A stretch of DNA of 36,063 bases, taken from NCBI GenBank assembly GCA_016794165.1, contig JAEUKV010000008.1, positions 1 through 36,063 on the forward strand, in the 5' to 3' direction. The notes beneath the pieces are model-generated. The model was given only the letters and a program-made list of their open reading frames with translations. It had not been told where the DNA came from and did no database searches. The translations under genes and the position numbers were made by a program. This document shows positions 26,955 through 29,319 of this stretch, in pieces (position 1 is the stretch's first letter; the number at the start of each line of letters is the position of its first letter). This stretch comes from Rhodospirillaceae bacterium (GTDB lineage Bacteria > Pseudomonadota > Alphaproteobacteria > Dongiales > Dongiaceae).

Positions 26955-27719
26955 ATGACCAGCACCAGCATCGTTACCGCCGCGGTGATCGTGATCGGCA
27001 ACGAGATTCTCTCGGGCCGCACCAAGGACATCAACCTCAACTACCTCGCCAGCGGGCTGACGGCGATCGGCATCCGCCTGATGGAAGGCCGTTTCATCCC
27101 CGATATCGAGGATACCATCGTCGCCACCGTGAACGAGCTGCGGGCGCGCCACGACTATGTCTTCACCACCGGTGGCATCGGTCCCACTCATGACGACATC
27201 ACCGCGGCGAGCGTAGCGAAGGCCTTCGGCCTCAAGCTGATCAAGCATGACCGTGCCGCCAAACTCCTCCTCGATCACTACGGCGCGGAGAACCTCACCG
27301 AGGCGCGCCTCCGCATGGCGCATACGCCGGAGGGGGCGACGCTGATCGACAATCCGGTTTCGGTGGCACCGGGCTTCCGCATCGGCAATGTCTTCGTGCT
27401 GGCCGGCGTGCCCCGCATCTGTCAGGCCATGTTCGACGGTCTCAAGGGAACGCTCCAGGGCGGCGACCCGGTGCTTTCGCGCACTGTCTCGGGATATGTG
27501 GGGGAGGGCACCATCGCCGGCGATCTCGGCAAGTTGCAGGAGCGCTACCCCACGCTGGAGATCGGCTCCTATCCCTTTTTCCGCTCCGGCAAATTCGGCG
27601 CCAGCTTCGTCATCCGGGGCACCGAGAAGGACAGGATCGACGCGGCGGCCGCGGAACTCCACGCCATCATCCGCAACCTCGGCGCCGAGCCGATCGAGGG
27701 AGAACCCGCCGCGACCTGA
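26955..27719 (+). CDS. CinA-like molybdopterin-binding (MoCF) domain protein
   Basis: This 254-residue protein is a single MoaB/MogA-type fold. Its N-terminus AAVIVIGNEILSGRTKDINLNYLASGL and the block FTTGGIGPTHDDITAASVAKAFG match the competence/damage-inducible CinA N-terminal family. The C-terminal nicotinamide-nucleotide amidase domain of full CinA (about 420 residues) is absent, as is usual for this alphaproteobacterial group. A binding role for molybdopterin or a nucleotide is known for the fold, but the exact reaction is unclear. Its stop codon lies nine bases before the 5' half of the split tRNA-Leu gene, so readthrough from this gene would enter the island. Confidence 0.88.
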   Translation: MTSTSIVTAAVIVIGNEILSGRTKDINLNYLASGLTAIGIRLMEGRFIPDIEDTIVATVNELRARHDYVFTTGGIGPTHDDITAASVAKAFGLKLIKHDRAAKLLLDHYGAENLTEARLRMAHTPEGATLIDNPVSVAPGFRIGNVFVLAGVPRICQAMFDGLKGTLQGGDPVLSRTVSGYVGEGTIAGDLGKLQERYPTLEIGSYPFFRSGKFGASFVIRGTEKDRIDAAAAELHAIIRNLGAEPIEGEPAAT

Positions 27720-27728
27720 CGGCAAGCT

Positions 27729-27767
27729 GCCCGCTTGGTGGAATTGGTAGACACACAGGACTTAAAA
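27729..27767 (+). pseudogene. 5' half of a split tRNA-Leu(UAA) gene
   Basis: The segment has the acceptor strand GCCCGCT (27729-27735), a tRNA-Leu-type D-arm with GGAATTGGTAGACAC, the anticodon 5' stem CAGGA (27756-27760) and the loop CTTAAAA (27761-27767). After the loop the sequence leaves the tRNA pattern completely. The missing half is found 1.37 kb downstream: TCCTG continues the anticodon stem and AGCGGGC the acceptor stem, both perfectly. The gene is therefore disrupted within its anticodon loop. Confidence 0.88.
27758..27767 (+). repeat. Left direct repeat (candidate attL core)
   Basis: GGACTTAAAA, identical to 29131-29140. It covers part of the anticodon stem and the loop of the broken tRNA-Leu gene. 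Confidence 0.7.
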
Positions 27768-27769
27768 AG

Positions 27770-27787
27770 TTGAGGGTCTTGAGGGTC
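27770..27787 (+). repeat. Tandem 9-base repeat next to the left core
   Basis: TTGAGGGTC occurs twice without spacing (27770-27778, 27779-27787), two bases inside the left end of the element. It may be a recombinase accessory site or chance. The rest of 27788-28019 shows no gene I can support. Confidence 0.45.
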
Positions 27788-27977
27788 CAGTAACACACTG
27801 ATTTTTCTGAATGCGACTTTGTGAACAGTGCGAGATTTTCCTTTTCACAGAGGTACTTGTCTTCTACTAATCCGATGTGTGGAGTCGTCAGTTTATTGTT
27901 ATGCTGATAACTCTTCAGGCCGTGACTGTAGTCGTTCAACTATGCAGTCGTGAGGACAGTTGCGCGGCCTCCGCCAA

Positions 27978-28000
27978 TTGTTGCGGGAGCTTGTTGCGGA
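27978..28000 (+). repeat. Two TTGTTGCGG repeats, possible recombinase arm sites (left set)
   Basis: TTGTTGCGGG at 27978-27987 and TTGTTGCGGA at 27991-28000 are 13 bases apart. They lie about 50-70 bases before the GACTTAAAA core of the intact tRNA-Leu. The same motif recurs three times before the right end of the element. Confidence 0.6.
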
Positions 28001-28019
28001 CTGAGTAACTAGTTGACAA

Positions 28020-28104
28020 GCGGGCGTGGCGGAACTGGTATACGCACACGACTTAAAATCGTGAGCCGTTAGGCATACGGGTTCGACTCCCGTCGCCCGC
28101 ACCA
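28020..28104 (+). tRNA. tRNA-Leu(UAA), intact, carried inside the island
   Basis: The cloverleaf is complete. Acceptor GCGGGCG (28020-28026) pairs with CGCCCGC (28094-28100). The anticodon stem CACGA/TCGTG encloses the loop CTTAAAA with anticodon TAA at 28054-28056. A long class II variable arm follows, and a T-arm with GGGTTCGACTCCC. The discriminator A and an encoded CCA end at 28104. Its sequence differs from the split copy in the acceptor, anticodon-stem, variable and T arms, so it is not a simple duplicate. It can decode UUA and UUG and may replace the gene destroyed by the insertion. The HEPN gene converges on it 16 bases downstream. Confidence 0.95.
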
Positions 28105-28120
28105 CTCTTCAATACGAGCA

Positions 28121-28732
28121 TCATCTAGAGGTATTCAGGCTTTCTAGAAGGCCCTGAATATGACGAGACACGTACGGATTCGGAAATTGCTCAGGGCTAT
28201 CGATCGCCACAAGAAGTTTGTTTGCGATCTGTAAGGCGGCATCGATGAGATCTCGAACTTGATCTGGAGCAATTGCAGCCTGATCGAACACTTCCTTGTA
28301 TGAAAACCTCGCATTTCGATGGGCGAATAGATTGTTTCGCAGATGCATCACTTTCTTTGCTACCGAGACCAGCGGTACTAGCAGTGCCTTTGCATCCTCT
28401 ATTCGAGTAGCGTCGTCACTGTGTTCTCCGATTTCATTTAACAAGGCTCTTAGACCGACGGTCCGATCATCCTTGTCATACAGCATAGCTGTATGGACTA
28501 TCATCGCGACGAAAGTGGCATGACTGTCGAACCTAAAGAACTCTGAGTACTGATTCATGGATTGCAGATAGAGAGGGCGGGTATCCGCGCCCTCGTAGGT
28601 CCACCAAATCTCATAGAATGCTCGTGCTCTGACCGCGAGTTGAGCCGCAGTATTCAACCTAACTTGCATGGGCAGGCGCTCAGATGAAGCGTTCTGGTCC
28701 TGTTGGGCGCAATTCTCGATTTCTGGGGTCAT
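28121..28732 (-). CDS. HEPN-domain protein, AbiU2-like, with RX5H motif
   Basis: The 203-residue protein is helical and has R132-N-N-L-F-A-H138, the RX4-6H motif that forms the ribonuclease site of HEPN proteins, with asparagine after the arginine as is usual. The context HLRNNLFAHRNARFSY and the aromatic-rich region FYEIWWTYEGADTRPL resemble the AbiU2-type HEPN family found in abortive-infection and toxin loci. The protein would act in the cytosol, probably as a dimer that cuts RNA. This is inference from the motif. The gene overlaps the preceding 69-residue gene by four bases (28729-28732), has GGAGGG just upstream of its ATG, and has much lower G+C than its neighbours. The target RNA is unknown. 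Confidence 0.72.
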   Translation of the reverse strand: MTPEIENCAQQDQNASSERLPMQVRLNTAAQLAVRARAFYEIWWTYEGADTRPLYLQSMNQYSEFFRFDSHATFVAMIVHTAMLYDKDDRTVGLRALLNEIGEHSDDATRIEDAKALLVPLVSVAKKVMHLRNNLFAHRNARFSYKEVFDQAAIAPDQVRDLIDAALQIANKLLVAIDSPEQFPNPYVSRHIQGLLESLNTSR

Positions 28733-28938
28733 ACTCCCTCCACAAAGAAGCGGTAGAGAAAGCCGTCGTCATTCCGACCCCACCAGTAATCATGCTGCTC
28801 GTTCTTCCCCGCCGTGGTGAATCTAGCTAGCTCCCCGTCTATGATGGCGATTGCATTTTCTCTGGTTTCGGCAACGCCTATCACCTCGCGTCCGTCATCT
28901 TTATTGTCAGCGCTTCGAACTCTGATGACGCTAAACAT
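28729..28938 (-). CDS. 69-residue protein of unknown function, operon partner of the HEPN protein
   Basis: The ATG at 28938 has GGAG six bases upstream. The product is small and acidic to neutral, without membrane segment or signal. It has an N-terminal beta-alpha pattern (FSVIRVRSADN, TRENAIAIIDGELARF) and a tryptophan-rich end (HDYWWGRNDDGFLYRFFVEG). I recognise no family. It precedes and overlaps the HEPN gene, the usual arrangement of an antitoxin or accessory gene in toxin-antitoxin pairs. It is not a MNT nucleotidyltransferase, the classical HEPN partner, because it lacks the GSxxxG/DxD signature. An antitoxin role is a hypothesis. Confidence 0.62.
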   Translation of the reverse strand: MFSVIRVRSADNKDDGREVIGVAETRENAIAIIDGELARFTTAGKNEQHDYWWGRNDDGFLYRFFVEGV

Positions 28939-29041
28939 GACGCGCTCCAGGAGTGAATATCTGCAGCAGCATACTACTACTCTAAAAAAAATTCGATGCG
29001 GTTGGGGCGATGTGCAAGATGTGTTGTTCGATAGCTACGAC

Positions 29042-29071
29042 TTGTTGCGGAGATGTTGCGGAAGTTGCGGA
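29042..29071 (+). repeat. Three GTTGCGGA repeats, possible recombinase arm sites (right set)
   Basis: TTGTTGCGGA at 29042-29051, TGTTGCGGA at 29054-29062 and AGTTGCGGA at 29063-29071 are spaced 10-12 bases apart. They lie 60-90 bases before the right core. They match the two copies before the intact tRNA in sequence, orientation and distance to the core. Confidence 0.6.
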
Positions 29072-29130
29072 AATCCGCATCAAGCCCAGCTTGCAGGCCT
29101 TGAAAATACTGAGAAATTGGCGACGATAAC

Positions 29131-29140
29131 GGACTTAAAA
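29131..29140 (+). repeat. Right direct repeat (candidate attR core)
   Basis: GGACTTAAAA, identical to 27758-27767. The element-side flank GAAATTGG (29112-29119) loosely resembles a tRNA D-loop, as if the element once carried a tRNA-like attachment site. Confidence 0.7.
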
Positions 29141-29190
29141 TCCTGAGAGGCGAAAGTCTCGTGCCGGTTCGAGTCCGGCAGCGGGCACCA
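29141..29190 (+). pseudogene. 3' half of the split tRNA-Leu(UAA) gene
   Basis: TCCTG (29141-29145) completes the anticodon stem begun at 27756. The variable arm GAG..GCGAAAGTCTC follows, then the T-arm GCCGG-TTCGAGT-CCGGC (29163-29179), the acceptor strand AGCGGGC (29180-29186), discriminator A and CCA to 29190. AGCGGGC is the exact complement of GCCCGCT at 27729-27735. The bases directly before the loop here (ACGGA) cannot form a full anticodon stem with TCCTG, whereas CAGGA of the left half can. This shows where the original 5' half lies. Confidence 0.88.
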
Positions 29191-29319
29191 CGGGTTCCAG
29201 ATGCTGATACGGTATCACTTCTTGCATCGGTGCCGGCATCTCTCAGCGCGGCGCTCGTTGCCATTAACTCTTCCTTTATCATTTCCGTGTGTATGAAGTT
29301 GTGCAGTTGCCGTCGATGA

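Follow-up and report, generated by a model that had tools for sequence, protein, structure and literature searches.

The window analysed here is the whole 36,063-nt stretch (positions 1 to 36,063) of contig JAEUKV010000008.1 from Rhodospirillaceae bacterium (GCA_016794165.1; Dongiales; Dongiaceae), a genome referred to below as G000. It contains a native tRNA-Leu(UAA) gene that is split in its anticodon loop by a mini-element, which carries an intact tRNA gene with the same anticodon and no integrase (Table 1). When joined, the native halves form an 89-nt tRNA that is found intact at 99% identity in the relatives G002, G003 and G006, and the 5′ flank of the insert is syntenic with G002, G003 and G005, in all of which the tRNA is unbroken. 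Both ends of the insert display a short common core over the host tRNA, as in an attB site, namely the 10-bp sequence GGACTTAAAA, which is shared by the two native halves and whose CTTAAAA portion is the entire anticodon loop. No functional tRNA is rebuilt at the left or the right junction, as ARAGORN calls only the copy inside the insert over the window. No integrase was found within the insert, nor any phage gene; its two ORFs, encoding a HEPN protein and a 69-residue product, have no PHROG match.

Table 1. Features of the split tRNA-Leu(UAA) locus and of its insert, in window coordinates.
Feature	Position	Strand	Basis
5′ half of native tRNA-Leu(UAA), up to and including the anticodon loop (left junction)	27729..27767	+	100% match to intact relatives, no continuation into the tRNA 3′ half
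10-bp core repeat GGACTTAAAA, left copy, including the anticodon loop (CTTAAAA, 27761-27767)	27758..27767	+	Repeat search
Mini-element between the core copies, about 1.37 kb	27768..29133	.	50% G+C, with 63-69% in the surrounding DNA
TGTTGCGG direct repeats, left pair; putative arm sites of an integrase	27979..27999	+	Pair search of the 3.74-Mb genome
Intact replacement tRNA-Leu(UAA); anticodon stem CACGA/TCGTG (native CAGGA/TCCTG)	28020..28104	+	ARAGORN and Rfam, 61.6 bits
HEPN protein, AbiU2 family, 203 aa, motif RNNLFAH	28121..28732	-	PF18734, E 3.4e-17, 63 bits against a cut-off of 26.8
ORF of 69 aa, immediately upstream of the HEPN gene and overlapping it by 4 nt (ATGA), no family match	28729..28938	-	ORF and profile searches
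Right pair of TGTTGCGG direct repeats, 11-bp period, then a degenerate third copy	29043..29061	+	Pair search of the 3.74-Mb genome
Right copy of the core repeat GGACTTAAAA	29131..29140	+	Repeat search
3′ half of native tRNA-Leu(UAA) (right junction)	29134..29190	+	Match to intact relatives; no tRNA called here

The same arrangement recurs in other bacteria. Five mini-elements of 1.10-1.46 kb (in G000, G004, G014, G136 and G324), containing one or two genes and summarized as spanning three genera, share a layout in which a split native tRNA-Leu(UAA) is accompanied by a divergent intact copy, in all five cases without an integrase and with a different cargo. The pairs of mini-elements compared, for example the inserts of the window and of G014, have no DNA in common except for the tRNA. 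Within the order, the native gene is split in four of 17 genomes from three genera (G000, G004, G009 and G014), each of which holds exactly one other tRNA-Leu(UAA), located within the insert. Genomes of the order with an unsplit gene have one native-type tRNA-Leu(UAA), the exceptions being G012, which has a further copy at another position, G007, whose copy is divergent, and G016, which is 68% complete and in which none was found. The insert of G009 is a 21-kb island with a tyrosine integrase adjoining its right junction, and its replacement tRNA-Leu(UAA) (L069:5378-5666, minus strand) contains a group I intron between U34 and A35 (Rfam RF00028, E = 1.2e-8; the score of 39.3 bits is lower than the gathering score of 50). 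With an intron at this classic U34/A35 site, the anticodon loop would also be concealed from an integrase.

The ends of the insert were condensed into a pattern of two TGTTGC-type repeats followed by CTTAAAATC, which was run over 385 genomes of the class and matched three, that of the window itself and G136 and G324 from another family; all three matches are split tRNA-Leu(UAA) loci with the layout seen in the window. A scan of genome contigs with the end pattern gave three matches, that in L171 lying at a tRNA and those in L170 and L172 not, and a phylum-wide scan yielded two further matches (L209 and L210), with no tRNA context in the matched strings. A similar element is also represented by its right half, comprising a divergent tRNA-Leu(UAA), TGTTGC repeats and an orphan 3′ half, on one contig of a metagenome-assembled genome labelled Nitrospirae bacterium REEB81; this contig has a ParB-like ORF upstream and may be misplaced in that assembly.

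The tRNA of the insert is the sole tRNA called in the window by both ARAGORN and Rfam. It is 71% identical to the native tRNA, from which it differs in the acceptor, anticodon-stem, variable and T arms, so that the original prediction of an intact replacement tRNA-Leu(UAA), of the same specificity as the split gene and divergent in these four regions, holds at the level of the locus. In the search for its source, suggested with that prediction, the window copy and the G014 element tRNA proved to be 95% identical, and the best phage and plasmid matches reach 80% (Rhizobium phage Pasto) and 79%, too distant for a close source. An exact 42-nt stretch of the element tRNA found no match in IMG/VR. 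Phage Pasto was also rejected as a direct relative of the element, its complete tRNA-Leu(UAA) and its integrase lying about 2 kb apart with no TGTTGC end pairs noted. The element tRNAs of G000, G014, G136 and G324 are mutually 79-95% identical, compared with 67-77% in pairwise comparisons with the native tRNAs of their own hosts; that of G004 stands apart and is nearest to the exons of the G009 tRNA (83%). The split native gene and its replacement have, in all of the mini-elements, different anticodon-stem pairs adjacent to the loop.

The genome holding the window is a 3.74-Mb draft in 332 contigs (98.7% complete, 3.4% contamination), in which 35 tRNAs were detected. Leucine tRNAs with anticodons CAA, UAG, GAG and CAG are present once each, and UAA occurs only in the element. 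The genome-wide count that the original prediction hinged on therefore gave a single intact tRNA-Leu(UAA), that of the element, and no second copy of host type. No other tRNA-Leu(UAA) was found in a draft whose tRNA set is itself incomplete, with no Met, Ile or Asp tRNA detected, for example; since several expected tRNAs are missing, the absence of a second copy is strong but not absolute. A pattern combining the anticodon loop and the T-arm, run over G000, gave just two matches, one in the element tRNA and one in the orphan 3′ half, and it likewise yielded only these two in G014 (a single contig) and in G136 and G324 (both 100% complete).

The codon read by this tRNA is very rare in the host, UUA accounting for 18 of 62,639 codons (0.03%) in 168 predicted ORFs from about 237 kb of the genome. 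In-frame UUA codons are present in hemA (codon 380) and hemC (codon 229), two genes whose identity was confirmed by NCBIfam; methionine aminopeptidase (Map) was discarded as an essential gene with UUA, its TTA being codon 2 of a probably over-long start, and was not counted. tRNA-Leu(CAA) is not known to read UUA. As only one UAA copy was found and UUA is present in hemA and hemC, the host is likely to depend on the element tRNA for decoding this codon, and retention of the element is a likely consequence of the tRNA replacement. On the other hand, the dependence may be mild because UUA is so rare; the Streptomyces UUA tRNA, bldA, is dispensable. Exact excision would restore the host tRNA and thereby provide an escape from the dependence.

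The cargo of the window element is headed by the HEPN gene, whose product is matched by the AbiU2 profile over 147 residues and contains an R-x5-H motif. It was not matched by PADLOC or PHROGs models, and no relatives were confirmed in IMG/VR. Its family assignment suggests that it is probably abortive-infection cargo, and the overlapping 69-residue ORF is probably part of the same operon. The product of this ORF (28729-28938, minus strand) is a possible partner or antitoxin of the HEPN protein. The other mini-elements carry an AbiV HEPN gene (G136), a DUF4145 protein with a PADLOC PD-T7-4 match (G324), SUKH-1 together with a small membrane-like ORF (G014) and a 274-residue ORF of no assigned family (G004). 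Three of the five cargoes match abortive-infection or phage-defence families, which makes them candidate, not established, defence genes.

The TGTTGCGG pairs listed in Table 1 are the only two in the G000 genome and lie near the two ends of the insert. The right-end repeats of the G014 insert agree with those of the window in period (11 bp) and in spacing from the core (about 79 nt), and in each of the five mini-elements some 200-230 nt separate the left-end repeats from the core. TGTTGC repeats are found near both ends in four of the five, and near at least one side in G004. They are candidate integrase sites of the arm type, resembling the repeats that accompany the integrases of T7-like temperate phages. 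The only tyrosine recombinases of G000 are XerC- and XerD-like, from which it follows that the integrase came from elsewhere; no helper integrase was detected in G000, nor do the recombinases found in G004 and G014 include one close to the phage integrase. The integrase of the G009 island was rejected as a helper: at the loci checked, related integrases from the class are not adjacent to 3′ halves of tRNA-Leu, and the ends of the G009 element are devoid of TGTTGC pairs.

A possible origin of the integrase emerged from two IMG/VR contigs, L193 and L198, which encode T7-type terminases, a phage-type integrase and tail fibre genes. In both, the integrase is followed by TGTTGC repeats, an intact tRNA-Leu(UAA) and the core CTTAAAATC, and in L193 this core runs on into a host tRNA 3′ half, placing the phage at a split locus. 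The features shared with the window element are thus the repeats, the intact tRNA-Leu(UAA) and the core; the phages differ in having integrase, terminase and tail fibre genes and in carrying a tRNA that retains GGACTTAAAATCC. Immunity through a changed stem is consequently not general, given that the tRNA of L193 and L198 still has this sequence. Relatives of the L198 integrase (59-65% identity) in contigs L235-L237 are accompanied by TGTTGC repeats and an intact tRNA-Leu(UAG), and L235 also contains the core GATTTAGGTTC, matching the core CAGATTTAGGTT of Rhizobium T7-like phages (PMC8631192). None of the 24 contigs returned by a wider viral pattern has both a complete tRNA and a 3′ half. One of them, L232 (2190-2340), combines an integrase and TGTTGC repeats with only the 5′ half of a tRNA-Leu and represents a conventional relative of the replacement type. 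Just past the right junction of the L193 phage there is a second integrase-like ORF (L193:436-1476, plus strand), convergent with the first. Taken at the sequence level, the mini-elements look like T7-like phage attachment sites without the phage.

The favoured reading, to which a probability of roughly 0.78 is given, is that of an integrase-less mini-element inserted site-specifically in the anticodon loop of the native tRNA-Leu(UAA), bringing a replacement tRNA and relying on a phage integrase in trans. The AGGA/TCCT stem flanking the loop would provide the core-type sites of attB and the 7-nt loop CTTAAAA the crossover region. The element tRNA would take over UUA decoding, as suggested by its single copy and by the UUA codons of hemA and hemC, so that integration would be survivable and imprecise loss probably would not. 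Because the anticodon stem of the replacement differs from the attB stem, this tRNA would be recognized poorly by the same recombinase, if that recombinase reads the stem. The integrase would be supplied by a T7-like temperate phage, and the HEPN AbiU2 gene would act in abortive infection, as is suggested by its family.

A more far-reaching version can be put forward only tentatively, and falls short of an even chance. It regards the mini-elements as minimal phage parasites, 1.1-1.5-kb cassettes that would copy a T7-like attachment site, use the phage integrase in trans, provide a replacement tRNA and carry an anti-phage gene directed against the kin of their helper. The genes meant are AbiU2, AbiV and the PD-T7-4-like gene, and imprecise loss of such a cassette would not be survivable.

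Among the alternatives, the insert might be a decayed T7-like prophage with tRNA-dependent lysogeny, of which only the tRNA and the attachment ends are left, the cargo being a leftover or a later arrival. The element ends do resemble T7-like phage attachment regions, an essential tRNA would survive decay and L193, which carries a tRNA-Leu(UAA), occupies a split locus of this kind. Random decay, however, should leave varied sizes and broken phage genes, whereas the five inserts are of similar size (1.1-1.46 kb), contain no recognisable phage gene, keep their end repeats and have intact largest ORFs that are different in each; this origin is considered unlikely.

Somewhat more doubtful still is selected addiction, the interpretation originally proposed, in which the tRNA is kept because it punishes loss of the element. 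That the only UAA leucine tRNA found is that of the element, that UUA codons occur in hemA and hemC and that no resident integrase is available for exact excision all accord with this interpretation, which is supported in part: dependence on the element tRNA is likely, and lethality of its loss is a prediction. The same facts are nevertheless accounted for by compensation for the destroyed gene, which must precede retention because an uncompensated integration would itself be lethal or harmful, and the host gene would be regained on exact excision. The simpler interpretation is that the replacement tRNA makes integration survivable, with retention as a by-product.

The remaining alternatives are far weaker. 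An assembly or binning artefact could be suspected in a 332-contig draft with 3.4% contamination, but is highly improbable in view of the 5′ flank being syntenic with relatives and of the same layout in the single-contig G014 and in G136 and G324. A conventional tRNA-targeting island, with the tRNA rebuilt at one junction, would follow the usual rule for such islands (PMC4383910) and is exemplified nearby in G002; it is practically discounted here, as neither window junction yields a tRNA and the intact copy shares only 71% identity with the native gene. Equally remote is a rejoining of the gene at the RNA level, with the insert as a group I intron or the gene as a spliced split tRNA. Group I introns classically occupy the anticodon loop of tRNA-Leu(UAA), and the G009 replacement tRNA has one, but positions 27650-29300 contain no group I match (RF00028), even at a relaxed threshold, and within the insert lie a complete tRNA and, on the opposite strand, a protein gene.

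The replacement principle behind the favoured reading, an integrase-less mini-element with its own tRNA, is not new, as tRNA-dependent lysogeny has been published for temperate actinobacteriophages (Guerrero-Bustamante and Hatfull, 2024; PMC10865867). Common to both are an attB in a host tRNA with a short core, no rebuilding of that tRNA and a tRNA borne by the element. Those phages infect actinobacteria, possess their own integrase and were demonstrated experimentally, in contrast to the present case, known from sequence in an order of a different bacterial group, in which a 1.37-kb element has no integrase or phage genes and carries HEPN cargo. The Rhizobium T7-like temperate phages vTRX32-1/RHEph01 integrate in a host tRNA-Leu through a 12-bp core and bring a replacement tRNA-Leu without the core, proposed to prevent super-integration (PMC8631192); these are 42-45-kb phages, and their core resembles that of L235, which accompanies tRNA-Leu(UAG), not UAA. 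Phage satellites (PICI, P4-like and PLE) are likewise small, integrated, phage-dependent or phage-restricting and often equipped with defence genes. They are described as typically 7-20 kb in length with their own integrase (PMC13376191), and regulatory or replication genes are a further hallmark, whereas the window element is about 1.4 kb long and has two ORFs and no integrase. Mobilization by a helper phage, as in satellites, may be suggested by the likeness of the element ends to attachment regions of T7-like phages. With respect to the AbiU2 HEPN family (PF18734), the window protein scores above the profile cut-off and has an R-x5-H motif, but is not matched by PADLOC or PHROGs.

Descriptions of such integrase-less mini-elements were not found in the open-licence PMC literature. 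What is new here is the use of the replacement principle by integrase-less, mostly defence-carrying mini-elements that probably employ T7-like phage integrases in trans, extending tRNA-dependent integration from temperate phages to tiny elements. This suggests that single defence genes may be fixed at a chromosomal site through the takeover of a needed tRNA. The 1.4-kb element offers a testable model that combines the swap of a core tRNA gene, mimicry of a phage attachment site and abortive-infection cargo. A tRNA gene of foreign origin in a mobile element can also sit among the tRNAs of a genome without being flagged by annotation pipelines.

Further arrangements were observed at the same site in relatives of G000. 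In G002 (L067:1805-1023, minus strand), an intact native tRNA-Leu(UAA) is followed by a 0.7-kb cassette, with a DUF805-like ORF recognized by eye, and by a displaced 3′ half; this cassette is a conventional, tRNA-restoring insertion. In G004, a second orphan tRNA-Leu(UAA) 3′ half (L066:1080-1021, minus strand) lies 0.6 kb past the first with a small ORF between them, compatible with tandem or successive insertions. The only tRNA-Leu(UAA) found in G007 (L081:1501-1587, minus strand) is divergent and located downstream of what is apparently the same MoCF-type gene, possibly representing a completed tRNA replacement.
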